This document shows positions 60,117 through 64,000 of a DNA stretch of 64,000 nucleotides, piece after piece. The translations under genes were made by a program, and so were the position numbers. How positions within the stretch are numbered: the stretch's first letter is position 1; the number at the start of each line of letters is the position of its first letter. The notes beneath the pieces are model-generated. The model did no database searches, had not been told where the DNA came from, and worked only from the letters and a program-made list of their open reading frames with translations. Location of the stretch: positions 5,145,501 to 5,209,500 of the forward strand of contig NZ_CP108109.1 of the NCBI RefSeq assembly GCF_036199905.1. Direction: 5' to 3'. The stretch comes from Streptomyces sp. NBC_00223. Lineage in GTDB: Bacteria > Actinomycetota > Actinomycetes > Streptomycetales > Streptomycetaceae.

Positions 60117-61214
60117 CTACGCGGCGGGCGTTGGGACGACGTCGGCGACGACGCAGCTGATGTTGTCGGGGCCGCCCGCGTCGTTGGCCAGGGCGATCAG
60201 CGCGCGGGTGGCGTCGTCCGGGTCCGGGACCGTGGTCAGGACGTGGCGGACGGCGTCGTCGGGGACGACGGCGGACAGGCCGTCGGAACACAGCAGATAG
60301 CGGTCGCCGGGCGCAGCGTCGTGCAGGCGCAGATCGGCGGCGGGCGTGGCGCCGGGGGTCAACGCGCGCAGCAGCAGGGCGCGTTGGGGGTGGGAGACGG
60401 CCTCCTGCGGGGTGAGCCGGCCCTCGTCGACCATCGACTGGACCAGCGTGTGGTCGTGGGTGATCAGGAAGAGTTCGCCTGCGCGCAGCAGATAGGCACG
60501 GGAGTCGCCGATGTGGACGAGGGCGAGGTGCGTACCCGTCCAGAGCATCGCGGTGAGCGTGGTGCCCGCCTCCTCCGCGGTGCCCGCGTCCGCGGGGGCG
60601 GTATTGCCCGAGGCGGCCACGGCGACGGCGTGGCCCGCCGACTCCACCGCGTTCTCAAGGACGTTGAGGATGTCGCCGGCCGGAATCCCGCCGGTCTCCA
60701 GCCGTTTGAGCGCGTCGATCGCAGCGGCCCCCGCAGGGGCCCCGGCGGGACCGAAGCCGTCGGCGACGGCGAGCAGTCGGGCGTCGGCGTACGCGGTGTC
60801 CTGGTTGCCGTTGCGTACGAGGCCCGCGTCGGAGCGGGCGGAGTAGCGGAGGGTGAGCGCGGTCGTCATGGAAGTGTCCTTTCCGGAGCGTGACAGATGG
60901 TCGATGAGGAAGCCCGCGAGGTCGCGGCGGGCGCCGGTGTCCGCCTCGACCCGCGCCCAGTAGGCGCGGACCTCGCGCGCGGCCTCGGGCGGATCCAGGT
61001 CGCAGACGTGCTGGATGCGCTGGAGCGGCATGCCGAGACGGCGCAGCCAGGCCACCAGCCGGGCGTGTTCGAGCTGCGCGGGCGCGTAGAAGCGGTAGCC
61101 GGTGGCGGGGTCGACGCGGGCGGGACGCAGGAGCCCGAGGTCGTCGTAGAGGCGCAGCGCCTTCGGCGAGAGGCGCGCGGCCTTCGCGAAGGCCCCGATG
61201 GTCAGCAGCTCCAT
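60117..61214 (-). CDS. MerR HTH - PP2C phosphatase fusion
   Basis: 365 residues. The first ~110 are a MerR-type DNA-binding domain with coiled coil (MELLTIGAFAKAARLSPKAL, RLYDDLGLLRPARVDPATGY, RLGMPLQRIQHVCDLDPPEA). The rest is a complete PPM/PP2C phosphatase: ARSDAGLVRNGNQDTAYADA, LLAVADGFGPAGAPAG, LVHIGDSRAYLLRAGELFLI, YLLCSDGLSAVVP and NDAGGPDNISCVVADVV carry the metal-binding Asp residues. ATG 61214 follows GGAAGGGAC. It links transcription to dephosphorylation in one protein; the Ser/Thr kinases of this window are possible partners but that is a guess. Confidence 0.92.
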   Translation of the reverse strand: MELLTIGAFAKAARLSPKALRLYDDLGLLRPARVDPATGYRFYAPAQLEHARLVAWLRRLGMPLQRIQHVCDLDPPEAAREVRAYWARVEADTGARRDLAGFLIDHLSRSGKDTSMTTALTLRYSARSDAGLVRNGNQDTAYADARLLAVADGFGPAGAPAGAAAIDALKRLETGGIPAGDILNVLENAVESAGHAVAVAASGNTAPADAGTAEEAGTTLTAMLWTGTHLALVHIGDSRAYLLRAGELFLITHDHTLVQSMVDEGRLTPQEAVSHPQRALLLRALTPGATPAADLRLHDAAPGDRYLLCSDGLSAVVPDDAVRHVLTTVPDPDDATRALIALANDAGGPDNISCVVADVVPTPAA

Positions 61215-61351
61215 GACCGTCCCTTCCGGTGGAGAAAGCGCCGGTCCGCCGGGGTGTCCGGGTCCGTGGGTCCGTGGGTCCACCGTGCGGGTTGCCCCGG
61301 GGTCAAGGTCAAGGGGGTACGGCCGCGCGGTCCGGGCGGGCGAGGCCGGCC

Positions 61352-61525: not shown

Positions 61526-61651
61526 ACTGTCTGGCAGGGGGGTGGTGAACTGCCATCGGGGTGCGGCGGGCGGGTCCGGCCCCGGCAGGAATTCGGAGGC
61601 AGGTCGGGGAATTGTCGGCGGAGTTCTGCTATTTCGGGGCATCCGCCTTTC

Positions 61652-61908
61652 CTGGTCTTATTGAGGCAGACGGAGCAGCCGCCCGGAAATCCCTCCGGGA
61701 AAGGAAGGAATCCGTCGGACGAGACCAAGGAGTTTCCCATGAACACCGGTGACCTGATGGGCGGATACGCCGCCTACACCACCCCGAACGCCGTCCTCCA
61801 GGAGATGGCCACCACCTCCGTGAAGGCCGCCGAGGAGAGCTCGATCTCCATCTCCATCTCGATCTCCTACAGCCTGTCCCTCTCCTGGAGCGTCTCGGTC
61901 AGCTGGGT
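61652..61908 (+). repeat. Duplicated segment, copy A (leader region plus peptide gene 1)
   Basis: This segment recurs 1043 bases downstream (62695-62951) without visible gaps. It covers GGTCTTATTGAGGCAGACGG, a CCCGGA/TCCGGG hairpin (61682-61699), the ribosome site AAGGAG, and most of peptide gene 1. Similarity extends upstream (CTGTCTGGCAG at about 61,526 and 62,561) more loosely. Confidence 0.85.
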
Positions 61909-61927
61909 CGCCCCGGCCGAGGCGTGA
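61739..61927 (+). CDS. RiPP-like precursor peptide 1
   Basis: 62 residues. The N-terminal part is MNTGDLMGGYAAYTTPNAVL then QEMATTS; the C-terminal part is almost pure Ser alternating with hydrophobic residues (SISISISISYSLSLSW, SVSVSW), ending VAPAEA. No cysteine, no signal peptide. The start has AAGGAG at good spacing. The first 24 residues recur in four neighbours while the rest varies, the pattern of a leader plus core. The alternating sequence would also make an amphipathic beta-strand. Function unknown. Confidence 0.85.
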   Translation: MNTGDLMGGYAAYTTPNAVLQEMATTSVKAAEESSISISISISYSLSLSWSVSVSWVAPAEA

Positions 61928-61938
61928 GGCGGACGACC

Positions 61939-62118
61939 ATGGCTACCGACGACCTCATGGGCGGCTACGCGGTGTACACCACCCCGAACGCCGTTCTCCA
62001 GGAGATGGCCGCCGCCGGCAATGTCAGCGAGCTGCCGATCTCGGTGTCGTACTCGTACTGGCCGTCGCTCTCGGTCCAGGGCGTGTCCCTGAACCCGAGC
62101 CTGCCCTACGCCCAGTAG
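61939..62118 (+). CDS. RiPP-like precursor peptide 2
   Basis: 59 residues, beginning 11 bases after the stop of peptide 1. Leader-like part MATDDLMGGYAVYTTPNAVL then QEMAAAGN; core-like part SELPISVSYSYWPSLSVQGV, then SLNPSLPYAQ. It has two Tyr and a Trp within the alternating block and more proline than peptide 1. No cysteine. Only cassette A has this second type; cassette B lacks it. The ribosome site is weaker (GAGGCGGACG), so it may depend on coupling with peptide 1. Confidence 0.85.
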   Translation: MATDDLMGGYAVYTTPNAVLQEMAAAGNVSELPISVSYSYWPSLSVQGVSLNPSLPYAQ

Positions 62119-62150
62119 CGGGGGCCGCGAAGCGGCGGAGAGGAGAGGAC

Positions 62151-62318
62151 GTGGACACCTCTGACCTGATGGGCGGTTACACGGCGTACGTCACGCCGAA
62201 CGCCGTTCTCCAGGAACTGGCCACCACGGGGGCGACGCAGACGCCGCCCACAGCGTCGATCACGATCACGCTCAGCGTCACGGTGAGCCTGAGTTTCGTG
62301 GCGCCGCAACCGCAGTAG
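62151..62318 (+). CDS. RiPP-like precursor peptide 3
   Basis: 55 residues, GTG start with GGAGAGGAGAGGAC. Leader-like part MDTSDLMGGYTAYVTPNAVL then QELATTG; core-like part ASITITLSVTVSLSF then VAPQPQ, where Thr replaces Ser at several alternating places. No cysteine. Too short for a usual ORF list but clearly part of the family. It ends 28 bases before the shared hairpin. Confidence 0.83.
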   Translation: MDTSDLMGGYTAYVTPNAVLQELATTGATQTPPTASITITLSVTVSLSFVAPQPQ

Positions 62319-62346
62319 CGACAACCGCACAGCAGAAGTACGCCAT

Positions 62347-62377
62347 GGCCCTGCCTCCCCAACGGGAGAGCAGGGCC
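62347..62377 (+). terminator. Hairpin closing peptide cassette A
   Basis: GGCCCTGC (62347-62354) with GCAGGGCC (62370-62377), and an inner CTCCC/GGGAG pairing. The same hairpin, with the downstream sequence CGCGGCGCGTTCCGG, closes cassette B at 63177-63209, so it was duplicated with the cassette. Confidence 0.7.
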
Positions 62378-62694
62378 GCGGCGCGTTCCGGCATTCCCCG
62401 CACTGCTCCTCGGCGTCCGGCGCATTCGTCGGGCGCCGTTCCGGTCGGCGCCATCCGGCGGGCGGGGTCGCGCAGCGCGCGCGCTGTGCGCGGACCGCAC
62501 GCCCGCCGGCGGGGGCGGTGAGAGGGCGACGCCGGTCCGGGCGTGACAGGGCCGTCCGCTTGTCTGGCAGAGGGTTCGGATCTGTCATCCCCATGGCAGA
62601 ACGGCATGGCGGCGACCGCGTCCGGACAGGGAATCGCTGACAAGGGGCCGACAATTGCGGCCCGAATGCTGCTATTCCGTTGGCCCGGCCGCCT
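62378..62694. other. Spacer between the two peptide cassettes
   Basis: No gene is supported here. The left part contains G+C-rich alternating sequence (GCGCAGCGCGCGCGC near 62,471). From about 62,561 the sequence loosely resembles the region before peptide gene 1 and should hold the promoter of cassette B; conserved words are TTGTCTGGCAG, AATTG and TGCTATT. Confidence 0.5.
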
Positions 62695-62951
62695 CTGGTC
62701 TTATTGAGGCAGACGGAGAAGCCGCCCGGAAATCCCTCCGGGAAAGGAAAGAATCCGTCGGACGAGACCAAGGAGTTTCCCATGAACACTGGCGACCTGA
62801 TGGCCGGATACGCCGCCTACACCACCCCGAACGCGGTCCTCCAGGAGATGGCCACCACCTCCGCCACCGTGGCCCCCGACAGCTCGATCTCCATCTCCAT
62901 CTCGATCTCCTACAGCCTGTCCCTGTCCTGGAGCGTCTCGGTCAGCTTCGT
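62695..62951 (+). repeat. Duplicated segment, copy B (leader region plus peptide gene 4)
   Basis: Counterpart of 61652-61908, offset 1043 bases, including the CCCGGA/TCCGGG hairpin (62725-62742) and the ribosome site. Confidence 0.85.
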
Positions 62952-62973
62952 GAACCAGCCCGTCGAGGTGTGA
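62782..62973 (+). CDS. RiPP-like precursor peptide 4
   Basis: 63 residues. Leader MNTGDLMAGYAAYTTPNAVL then QEMATTS; core SISISISISYSLSLSW then SVSVSFVNQPVEV. Residues 34-55 are identical to peptide 1, while residues 29-33 and the tail differ. This suggests conservation of the core after duplication, with drift in the junction. AAGGAG ribosome site. Confidence 0.85.
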   Translation: MNTGDLMAGYAAYTTPNAVLQEMATTSATVAPDSSISISISISYSLSLSWSVSVSFVNQPVEV

Positions 62974-62985
62974 GGTTCGCGGCCG

Positions 62986-63156
62986 ATGGACTCCGCTGAT
63001 CCGATGGCCGGCCACGCGGCGTACGTCACGCCGAACGCCGTCCTCCAGGAGACGGCCGCCCCGGGACTCGCCGCCGAGACGATCACCTGGCCGTTCTCGG
63101 TCTCCCTTCCCGGGCCGCCCGGCGTCTCGGTGATCAGCGTCAGCTTCGCCCGGTAA
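62986..63156 (+). CDS. RiPP-like precursor peptide 5
   Basis: 56 residues, ATG 62986, 12 bases after the stop of peptide 4. Leader-like MDSADPMAGHAAYVTPNAVL then QETAAPG; core-like ETITWPFSVSLPGPPGVSVI then SVSFAR. The leader departs from the others at DP and GH, and the core is rich in Pro/Gly. It corresponds in position and in the YVTPNAVLQE wording to peptide 3. No cysteine. Possibly diverged or specialised. Confidence 0.8.
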   Translation: MDSADPMAGHAAYVTPNAVLQETAAPGLAAETITWPFSVSLPGPPGVSVISVSFAR

Positions 63157-63176
63157 CAACGGCACATGAACGCCTT

Positions 63177-63209
63177 GGCCCTGCCTCCCCGCGAGGGGAG
63201 AGCAGGGCC
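63177..63209 (+). terminator. Hairpin closing peptide cassette B
   Basis: GGCCCTGC (63177-63184) with GCAGGGCC (63202-63209), and inner CTCCCC/GGGGAG over a GCGA loop. It is a better stem than the copy in cassette A and ends the cassette in front of the convergent luxR gene. Confidence 0.75.
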
Positions 63210-63236
63210 GCGGCGCGTTCCGGGCGGGGCCGTCGC

Positions 63237-64000
63237 TCACGCGGTCCGCGCCTCGGCCGCGCGGTGGGTGAGGACACGGCTGGCGACGCCCACCCGGGAG
63301 GTGCAGTCGAGCTTGCGCATGATCTCGCGCATGTGGTTGACCACGGTCCACTCGGAGATCTGCAGACGGCGGGCGATCTGCTTGTTGCTCATGCCCTCGG
63401 TGACGAGTTCGCAGACCTCCGACTGCCGGGCGGTCAGGACCCCGCCGAAGCCGGCCGAGAGGTTCCCGGTCGCGTACGTGGTGGGCGCGCGCGGCGGCGC
63501 GAGGGGCACGCCGGGGCTGCCGGTGAGGCCGGGCACCCCGCCGGCACCGGACCCGCCGGAGACGCCGACCGCTCCCGGAACGCCGGGAAAGCCCGCCGAC
63601 AGGGCCGACGGCACCGGCACCGTACCGCCGCCCAACTGCGCGATCTGGTCGACCAGCCGTAGCGCCGCCCCCTCCCGCAGGGCCCGCGTGAAGTCCTGGT
63701 CGCCGAGCAGCCGCCGCAAAGGCTGTTCGAGTCCGCTCACCGCGAAGTCCGGCACCGACGCCGCCCCGAGTATCGCCTCGCGGGACGCGTAGAAGCCGCC
63801 CAGCAGCCGTACGGTGCCGAACGCCCGGTCCGACATGCCGGGACGCATCGGGCCCGCGACCACGCGGACGAAGGAGCCCAGCACCGCGACCGCGCCGAGC
63901 CCGCGCAGGCTGGCCAGCGCCCGGTGGAAGTACTCCTCGGCGCGGGCCGCGGCGCCCGCCACCCGACCGTCCGGCCCGGGAGCGCCTGCCCCCGAACCGC
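63237..64000 (-). CDS. LuxR-type transcriptional regulator (5' end outside window)
   Basis: The frame is open to the window end, so the N-terminus is missing; at least 253 residues are present. The C-terminal HTH is LTARQSEVCELVTEGMSNKQ, IARRLQISEWTVVNHMREIM, a classic LuxR/NarL tetra-helix. A long Gly/Pro-rich linker (SALSAGFPGVPGAVGVSGGS) separates it from a helical N-terminal region (LASLRGLGAVAVLGSFVRVV). No receiver Asp motif is seen in the visible part. It converges on the peptide cassettes and may control them. Confidence 0.85.
   Translation of the reverse strand, partial: GSGAGAPGPDGRVAGAAARAEEYFHRALASLRGLGAVAVLGSFVRVVAGPMRPGMSDRAFGTVRLLGGFYASREAILGAASVPDFAVSGLEQPLRRLLGDQDFTRALREGAALRLVDQIAQLGGGTVPVPSALSAGFPGVPGAVGVSGGSGAGGVPGLTGSPGVPLAPPRAPTTYATGNLSAGFGGVLTARQSEVCELVTEGMSNKQIARRLQISEWTVVNHMREIMRKLDCTSRVGVASRVLTHRAAEARTA

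Follow-up and report, generated by a model that had tools for sequence, protein, structure and literature searches.

The window, a stretch of 64,000 nucleotides (nt; C1:5145501-5209500) from the complete, 7.96-Mb genome of Streptomyces sp. NBC_00223, carries close to its end five tandem small genes (61739-63156) that encode putative precursors of ribosomally synthesised and post-translationally modified peptides (RiPPs). The five open reading frames, which an earlier note had picked out from the letters alone, were confirmed, as was the near identity of their N-termini: all the precursors (5/5) share the segment MxxxDLMxGYxAYxTPNAVLQE, of the type DLMGGYAAYTTPNAVLQE, and the first 80 nt of the gene recur in five copies with 78-95% identity to copy 1. 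The C-terminal halves (cores) are divergent, Ser/Thr-rich and Cys-free; in agreement with the note, Cys is absent from all five window precursors (0/5), and no signal peptide was recognised by inspection. The genes are arranged in two duplicated cassettes (genes 1-3 and genes 4-5). A direct repeat of 300 nt with 88% identity (61610-61909 and 62653-62952) spans the upstream region and the starts of genes 1 and 4, and each cassette ends in a terminator-like hairpin that no shuffled sequence matched in stability (0/200 shuffles for both), the two hairpins being repeats of each other. Directly upstream of the cassettes, on the minus strand (60117-61283), a single frame combines a MerR-type DNA-binding domain with a PP2C Ser/Thr phosphatase domain.

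The distribution of Ser/Thr in the cores was evaluated in 27 precursors picked by a hidden Markov model (HMM) of their first 26 residues alone, so the cores had no part in the selection; expectations were taken from within-core shuffles. Ser/Thr pairs at distance 2 were strongly overrepresented (188 observed against 87.8 +/- 6.2 shuffled, z ~+16) and adjacent Ser/Thr pairs were depleted (29 against 91.2 +/- 6.2, z ~-10), the 27 precursors being related and hence not independent tests. The alternation was seen again at eight loci, the eighth (L105) found later, in cores with little common sequence. In the window, the alternation described in the earlier note proved strict for genes 1, 3 and 4, with runs of 22 (p=0.0009), 16 (p=0.00015) and 22 residues (p=0.00025), and partial for genes 2 (p=0.05) and 5 (p=0.04). 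Strict cores contain alternating runs of 14-22 residues, a pattern that would allow every other residue to be D; the residues interposed between Ser/Thr are mainly Val, Ile, Leu, Trp, Phe and Tyr, and the aromatics lie preferentially nearer the C-terminus of the run (p=5e-5). Since the codons in the window cores are mixed (TCC, TCG and AGC for Ser; in gene 3 also ACG for Thr), the pattern appears to be kept by selection at the residue level; an origin as a DNA repeat or low-complexity sequence was ruled out by these TCN/AGC/ACG mixtures together with the divergence of the cores. Nine other sequences of the class V type, the class of lexapeptide (six with Cys, three Cys-free), had little or no group excess of distance-2 pairs (21 against 17.3 +/- 3.1), cacaoidin being the only one among them with a short alternating stretch (run of 12, p=0.02).

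For the leader, which the earlier note had failed to recognise, a probable family was found. The NCBIfam profile LxmA_leader (NF038146; curated cutoff 25 bits) scored genes 1 to 5 at 23.2, 22.4, 22.5, 24.7 and 14.3 bits (E-values 5e-5, 9e-5, 9e-5, 2e-5 and 0.03), and one of the five exceeds the cutoff only if frame neighbours are counted. LxmA was the only consistent NCBIfam match of these leaders, 14/14 aligned family members matched the profile at E <= 1, and a relative from Streptomyces clavuligerus carries the LxmA leader annotation in RefSeq. By these profile matches, just under the cutoff, the leader is most probably of the LxmA type, a lexapeptide or class V leader, and the idea of an unknown leader was rejected. 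Leader residues following the pattern L-x-x-G-Y-x-x-Y are invariant. An acidic residue stands immediately before 9/16 alternating runs and four or fewer residues before 14/16; like the E preceding SSAP in CaoA, it suggests a leader cleavage site.

The absence of any maturation enzyme before the window end, as stated in the earlier note, held inside the window, but the enzymes start a few kb beyond it. When the same contig was read past position 64,000 (locus L002; window position = L002 position + 57499), where the note had pointed for processing genes, a kinase (K), a lyase (Y), a reductase (J) and an ABC exporter (T) were found ~2-10 kb beyond the window end, mostly on the minus strand (Table 1). 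The K and Y profiles matched the two chains of PDB 9dk1 (E=3.5e-107 and 8.8e-81), the solved structure of the lexapeptide dehydratase LxmKY (PMC12141560). In Y, residues R173, K205, R215 and Y222 are invariant and spaced as R187, K219, R229 and Y236 of CaoY; mutagenesis of CaoY covered R187, K219 and R229, of which R187 and K219 were needed (PMC9486802). The stand-alone kinase LanK and HopA1 lyase LanY that characterise class V are thus both found at the locus. The reading of the five genes as RiPP precursors is supported; because the leader matches LxmA and the neighbouring kinase is LxmK above the curated cutoff, an "undescribed RiPP family", as the note had put it, is unsupported as stated. 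The best match of J was TIGR03564 (F420_MSMEG_4879), the family of LxmJ and Cao12 (PMC8068269), with 80-101 bits against a curated cutoff of 234; the J of a Cys-type locus (L070) likewise fell under the cutoff, with 133 bits. The F420 reductase structures 1z69 and 8qq8 also match J, and on this evidence the cluster has a LanJC-type enzyme, an F420-dependent LLM-class reductase of the MSMEG_4879 type. No radical SAM protein occurs among the cluster's genes. The gap of ~840 bp between J and Y (L002:13873-14570) contains degenerate direct repeats (42 nt x5, the 19-nt GTCCGCCGGTGCAGGCGGC x6 and 82 nt x2), with a strong strand skew (AT skew about -0.6) and no convincing gene; at the other alternating loci Y and J are adjacent.

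Table 1. Features of the precursor cassettes and of the enzyme cluster (window positions unless preceded by L002)
Feature	Position	Strand	Remarks
Upstream region, cassette 1	61610-61738	+	putative promoter and AAGGAG ribosome site; within direct repeat
Precursor gene 1	61739-61927	+	62 aa; leader and core SSISISISISYSLSLSWSVSVSWVAPAEA
Precursor gene 2	61939-62118	+	59 aa; leader and core ISVSYSYWPSLSVQGVSLNPSLPYAQ, alternation partial
Precursor gene 3	62151-62318	+	55 aa; GTG start; leader and core SITITLSVTVSLSFVAPQPQ
Terminator-like hairpin closing cassette 1	62346-62379	+	-44.8 kcal/mol, z -5.0
Upstream region, cassette 2	62653-62781	+	copy of 61610-61738
Precursor gene 4	62782-62973	+	63 aa; near-duplicate of gene 1; core SSISISISISYSLSLSWSVSVSFVNQPVEV
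Precursor gene 5	62986-63156	+	56 aa; leader and core TITWPFSVSLPGPPGVSVISVSFAR, alternation partial
Terminator-like hairpin closing cassette 2	63176-63213	+	-49.9 kcal/mol, z -3.7
LuxR-type regulator	63237 to 65852 (L002:8353)	-	871 aa; C-terminal part inside window to 64000
SDR-like protein	L002:8405-8956	-	
HTH protein	L002:9155-10138	+	
ABC exporter T	L002:10819-12636	-	
F420-dependent LLM reductase J (LxmJ type)	L002:12767-13741	-	TIGR03564 best family
HopA1 lyase Y (LxmY)	L002:14585-15598	-	PF17914, 2.6e-41
Kinase K, LxmK	L002:15595-16740	-	NF038156, 409 bits against curated cutoff 315

The module that closes rings in related clusters was missing. In class Va, the Cys decarboxylase LanD and the cyclase LanX make the aminovinyl-methyl-cysteine (AviMeCys) ring (PMC12291118). 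No homologue of either was found within about 10-20 kb at the window, L002-L004, L024, L026, L028, L030-L032 or L105, whereas both were present at the Cys-type loci L068-L072, and LanD only at L073. When the cluster proteins were compared with Pfam and NCBIfam, none matched LanC, the cyclase of class Vb; an unclustered LanC was not searched for. Cys was found neither in the cores of the 27 precursors nor in the L105 precursor, so a thioether cannot form within these 27 cores; with LanD, LanX and LanC missing as well, no lanthionine should form. Lanthionine formation was ruled out by the lack of Cys, LanD and LanX, and the name lanthipeptide is not apt. We are highly confident that this is a lanthionine-free, class V-type RiPP system, which would correspond to the first part of the class V pathway with a D-residue step added.

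A kinase search of GTDB species genomes, combined with searches of related genomes, yielded seven homologous alternating loci besides the one studied here, counting two from Herbidospora (L028 and L030) as one. The others belong to Streptomyces sp. HPF1205 (L024/L029), Actinacidiphila soli (L025/L035), a genome of the same order (L026), Rhizohabitans (L031), Sphaerimonospora (L032) and genome G900 (L105, with a single precursor). A leader HMM, a kind of search that the earlier note had suggested, returned the 27 precursors. One to six precursors adjoin K, followed by Y and J, at all related loci save that of A. soli; most loci have 3-6 different precursors, whereas each cluster has a single J, K and Y. 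LuxR-type genes lie near most of the homologous loci, and the Herbidospora, Rhizohabitans and Sphaerimonospora operons continue with the exporter and two M16 peptidases. In A. soli there is one strictly alternating precursor, K is split in two frames, Y matches poorly and J was not found, so that this cluster appears to be decaying or misassembled. The arrangement spans two bacterial families and is rare: it was found in 5/343 genomes of the family of Herbidospora, and among 395 genomes drawn evenly from the class only the genome studied here and one weak match, of Cys type, came up. J had no match in the viral contigs scanned. Three matches of the kinase scan were placed outside the alternating family, two with no LxmA-type precursor (L027 and L033) and one with a Cys core (L034). 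Beside the alternating precursors of L026 (7869-9857, minus strand) lies a RiPP radical-SAM C-methyltransferase (TIGR03975, 677 bits against a cutoff of 282).

In the tree of J, the eight alternating rows (L002, L024, L026, L028, L030, L031, L032 and L105) fell in one clade with support 100/99, which also holds two Cys-free relatives, those of the S. clavuligerus plasmid (L080) and of G160 (L066). The L105 kinase is too diverged for sure placement; because the J sequences nevertheless form one clade, J tracks Cys-free, mostly alternating cores better than K does. The S. clavuligerus locus, on plasmid pF1D1A (47501-66733) of this clavulanate producer, combines K-Y-J and a LuxR regulator with a single LxmA-leader peptide that has no Cys (core ...FTPTITVTPTTEVIVSVVVSLLTPHV); LanD and LanX are not annotated there. 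At L066 and at L052 of G356, the LxmA-leader peptides likewise lack Cys, and their very hydrophobic cores do not alternate (SPWIVTTISLVVTILLPLTAS; SWTLIPLTLVTITIIA). The L066 precursors share their locus with an exporter, a LuxR regulator, K and Y, and with J, which lies at the far end, so that J by itself does not force alternation. The five tandem class V precursors of L075 (G786) contain Cys, and some have an internal alternating stretch (AVGVSVSVSVSVHQ), possibly an intermediate between cacaoidin-type and Cys-free cores. Two further plasmids carry class V clusters: a 48-kb circular plasmid of Nonomuraea gerenzanensis (L081; LxmA peptide, lxmK, HopA1, F420 reductase, flavoprotein and prolyl oligopeptidase) and a plasmid of Streptomyces sp. 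NBC_01558 (L082), where a tryptophan 7-halogenase adjoins HopA1.

The precursors, their alternation, the gene content and the intact catalytic residues of the lyase provide strong evidence, at the level of sequence, for the machinery; dehydration and D-reduction are proposed by analogy with characterised homologues. K/Y pairs convert Ser/Thr to dehydroalanine (Dha) and dehydrobutyrine (Dhb) (PMC9486802). F420-dependent J reduces Dha to D-Ala in lexapeptide (as reported in PMC8068269) and rosin, where deletion of RosJ gave a product 4 Da lighter, equal to two Dha left unreduced (PMC12291118), and Dhb is reduced to D-2-aminobutyrate (D-Abu) in at least one case, massatide, by a second reductase (PMC11162475). 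The best explanation, held with moderate confidence, is a class V dehydratase and reductase RiPP cluster that lacks ring-forming enzymes and makes a product of alternating L and D residues. The LxmA-type leader would dock on the kinase LxmK, K would phosphorylate the core Ser/Thr, and the HopA1 lyase Y would eliminate the phosphate to give Dha/Dhb at every second position; J, with F420H2, would then reduce these stereospecifically to D-Ala/D-Abu, and T would export the product once the leader had been cut off, probably by M16 peptidases. If the product begins with Dha, this residue should hydrolyse and leave a blocked pyruvoyl end. The predicted product is linear and mostly hydrophobic, and over ~14-22 positions bulky L and small D residues would take turns, the L residues being Ile, Val and Leu, then aromatics nearer the C-terminus. 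Dehydration of most Ser/Thr is quite confidently expected, and D-Ala/D-Abu at many alternating positions is likely; we infer reduction along the full run from the pattern alone. Peptides of this kind can adopt beta-helices, and gramicidin and polytheonamide combine a beta-helix with membrane activity (review PMC8183687). From the same pattern alone, a beta-helix fold acting on membranes as a gramicidin-like channel or pore may tentatively be read for the peptides studied here.

Several observations weigh against this explanation. The alternating loci have one J each, against the second, D-Abu-making reductase of massatide, and LxmJ left the Dhb of an S28T variant unreduced (PMC8068269); Thr positions might therefore remain Dhb. 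Products rich in unreduced Dha/Dhb are conceivable. The Cys-free cores of genes 2 and 5, L066 and S. clavuligerus are partly alternating or non-alternating, and alternation is therefore no strict enzyme requirement. The cluster also lacks a clustered peptidase, the M16 genes being >1 Mb distant. The degree of reduction, above all at Thr, is the main uncertainty, and channel activity the second.

Among the alternatives, the one that survives best is a multi-component system, doubtful but tenable, in which the tandem peptides cooperate, as a hetero-oligomeric pore or in the style of two-peptide lantibiotics, or form a combinatorial set produced by the same few enzymes. The several different precursors per cluster served by single copies of J, K and Y, and the two co-directional cassettes in the window, agree with it, but L105 and the A. 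soli locus (L025) have a single precursor, so one peptide can suffice; it is compatible with the alternating D/L product and does not exclude it. Less probable, and on balance rather unlikely, are dehydro-peptides, in which K/Y would dehydrate the alternating Ser/Thr and J reduce one or a few, giving a linear Dha/Dhb-rich product, linaridin- or goadsporin-like in spirit, whose activity would come from electrophilic residues or an extended fold. Known class V products do retain some Dha/Dhb, J is position-selective (two positions in rosin, one in lexapeptide), and many cores are rich in Thr, to which the S28T result applies; nevertheless, every intact, strictly alternating locus has a dedicated J after Y, J rather than K best tracks these loci on the trees, and strict alternation, needed for an alternating D/L backbone, would have no obvious purpose in a dehydro-peptide. 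Alternating polar and hydrophobic residues are also the classic amphipathic beta pattern, and the earlier note had considered self-assembling beta peptides. Unmodified amyloid- or surface-forming strands, beside class V genes that act on some other precursor, are nonetheless very improbable: a Ser/Thr dehydratase pair stands at every intact locus, which makes peptides with intact Ser/Thr unlikely, Y retains its catalytic residues, the precursors have a class V leader and no signal peptide, these loci yielded no further leader peptide, and the same arrangement is seen in two bacterial families. Ordinary class V lanthipeptides cyclised by enzymes or Cys encoded elsewhere are scarcely credible, for although leader and dehydratase are both class V, the cores cannot form an internal thioether and the alternating loci searched lack the LanD/LanX present at the Cys-type loci examined.

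The enzymes and the leader of the favoured alternating D/L system are of kinds already known; what is unusual is the combination of K, Y and J only with Cys-free cores, strict alternation and tandem precursors. No description of a Cys-free or alternating class V product was found in the open-access literature; subscription papers were not covered and a prior description is possible. Alternating D/L peptides form membrane channels, and to our knowledge the ribosomal route to them known so far is that of polytheonamide and its relatives, via a radical-SAM epimerase. If the proposal is true, D positions are written in the gene as Ser/Thr and three enzymes (K, Y and J) suffice, which would make D/L-alternating peptides sequence-programmable and directly testable in laboratory strains, and machinery filed under lanthipeptides would work without lanthionine. 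In its general form, that of ribosomal, alternating D/L, beta-helical membrane channels made by a kinase, a lyase and an F420 reductase, often several per cluster and with neither thioether rings nor epimerase, the proposal is a conjecture to which we incline slightly less than to its opposite.

Among known systems, lexapeptide (lxm, Streptomyces rochei; class Va) shares the LxmA-type leader, LxmK, the HopA1 lyase LxmY, the F420H2-dependent LxmJ and, with some of the relatives only, an M16 peptidase pair; its core has Cys, AviMeCys and one D-Ala, and LxmD and LxmX are present, whereas the system described here has no Cys and no LxmD/LxmX, Ser/Thr at every second residue and several tandem precursors. 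Linaridins are likewise linear, dehydrated, lanthionine-free RiPPs, but use another dehydratase than the K/Y pair, and the cypemycin type retains a C-terminal Cys for aminovinyl-cysteine (AviCys). The predicted architecture, a linear hydrophobic peptide of alternating L/D residues, is that of the polytheonamides (proteusins) and gramicidin A, the latter also with its aromatic residues nearer the C-terminus. The D residues of polytheonamide are produced by a radical-SAM epimerase acting on a proteusin leader, and gramicidin is non-ribosomal, whereas here D residues would arise by Ser/Thr dehydration and reduction, with D side chains of Ala/Abu only. Instead of the nitrile-hydratase/Nif11-like leader and radical-SAM epimerase that mark proteusins, an LxmA leader and a cluster without radical SAM were found; the enzyme at L026 recalls C-methylation in polytheonamides, but its type is a C-methyltransferase and no epimerase. 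Rosins, massatide and sistertides (class V) share K/Y dehydration and J-type reduction to D-Ala/D-Abu, steps backed by gene deletion and Marfey analysis (PMC12291118, PMC11162475), but all have Cys-derived rings and few reduced positions. Cacaoidin (cao, Streptomyces cacaoi) differs in its lanthionine and AviMeCys rings, N-methylation, glycosylated Tyr and shorter alternation, yet its core has the short alternating stretch ASVSASISATAS, and, like genes 1 and 4, it has an acidic residue in front of the SS that opens the core. It contains five D residues, four D-Ala and one D-Abu (PMC8068269). Since the core offers no more than five Ser apart from the N-terminal pair, D-Ala is to be expected at three or all of the four Ser of the stretch S-V-S-A-S-I-S.

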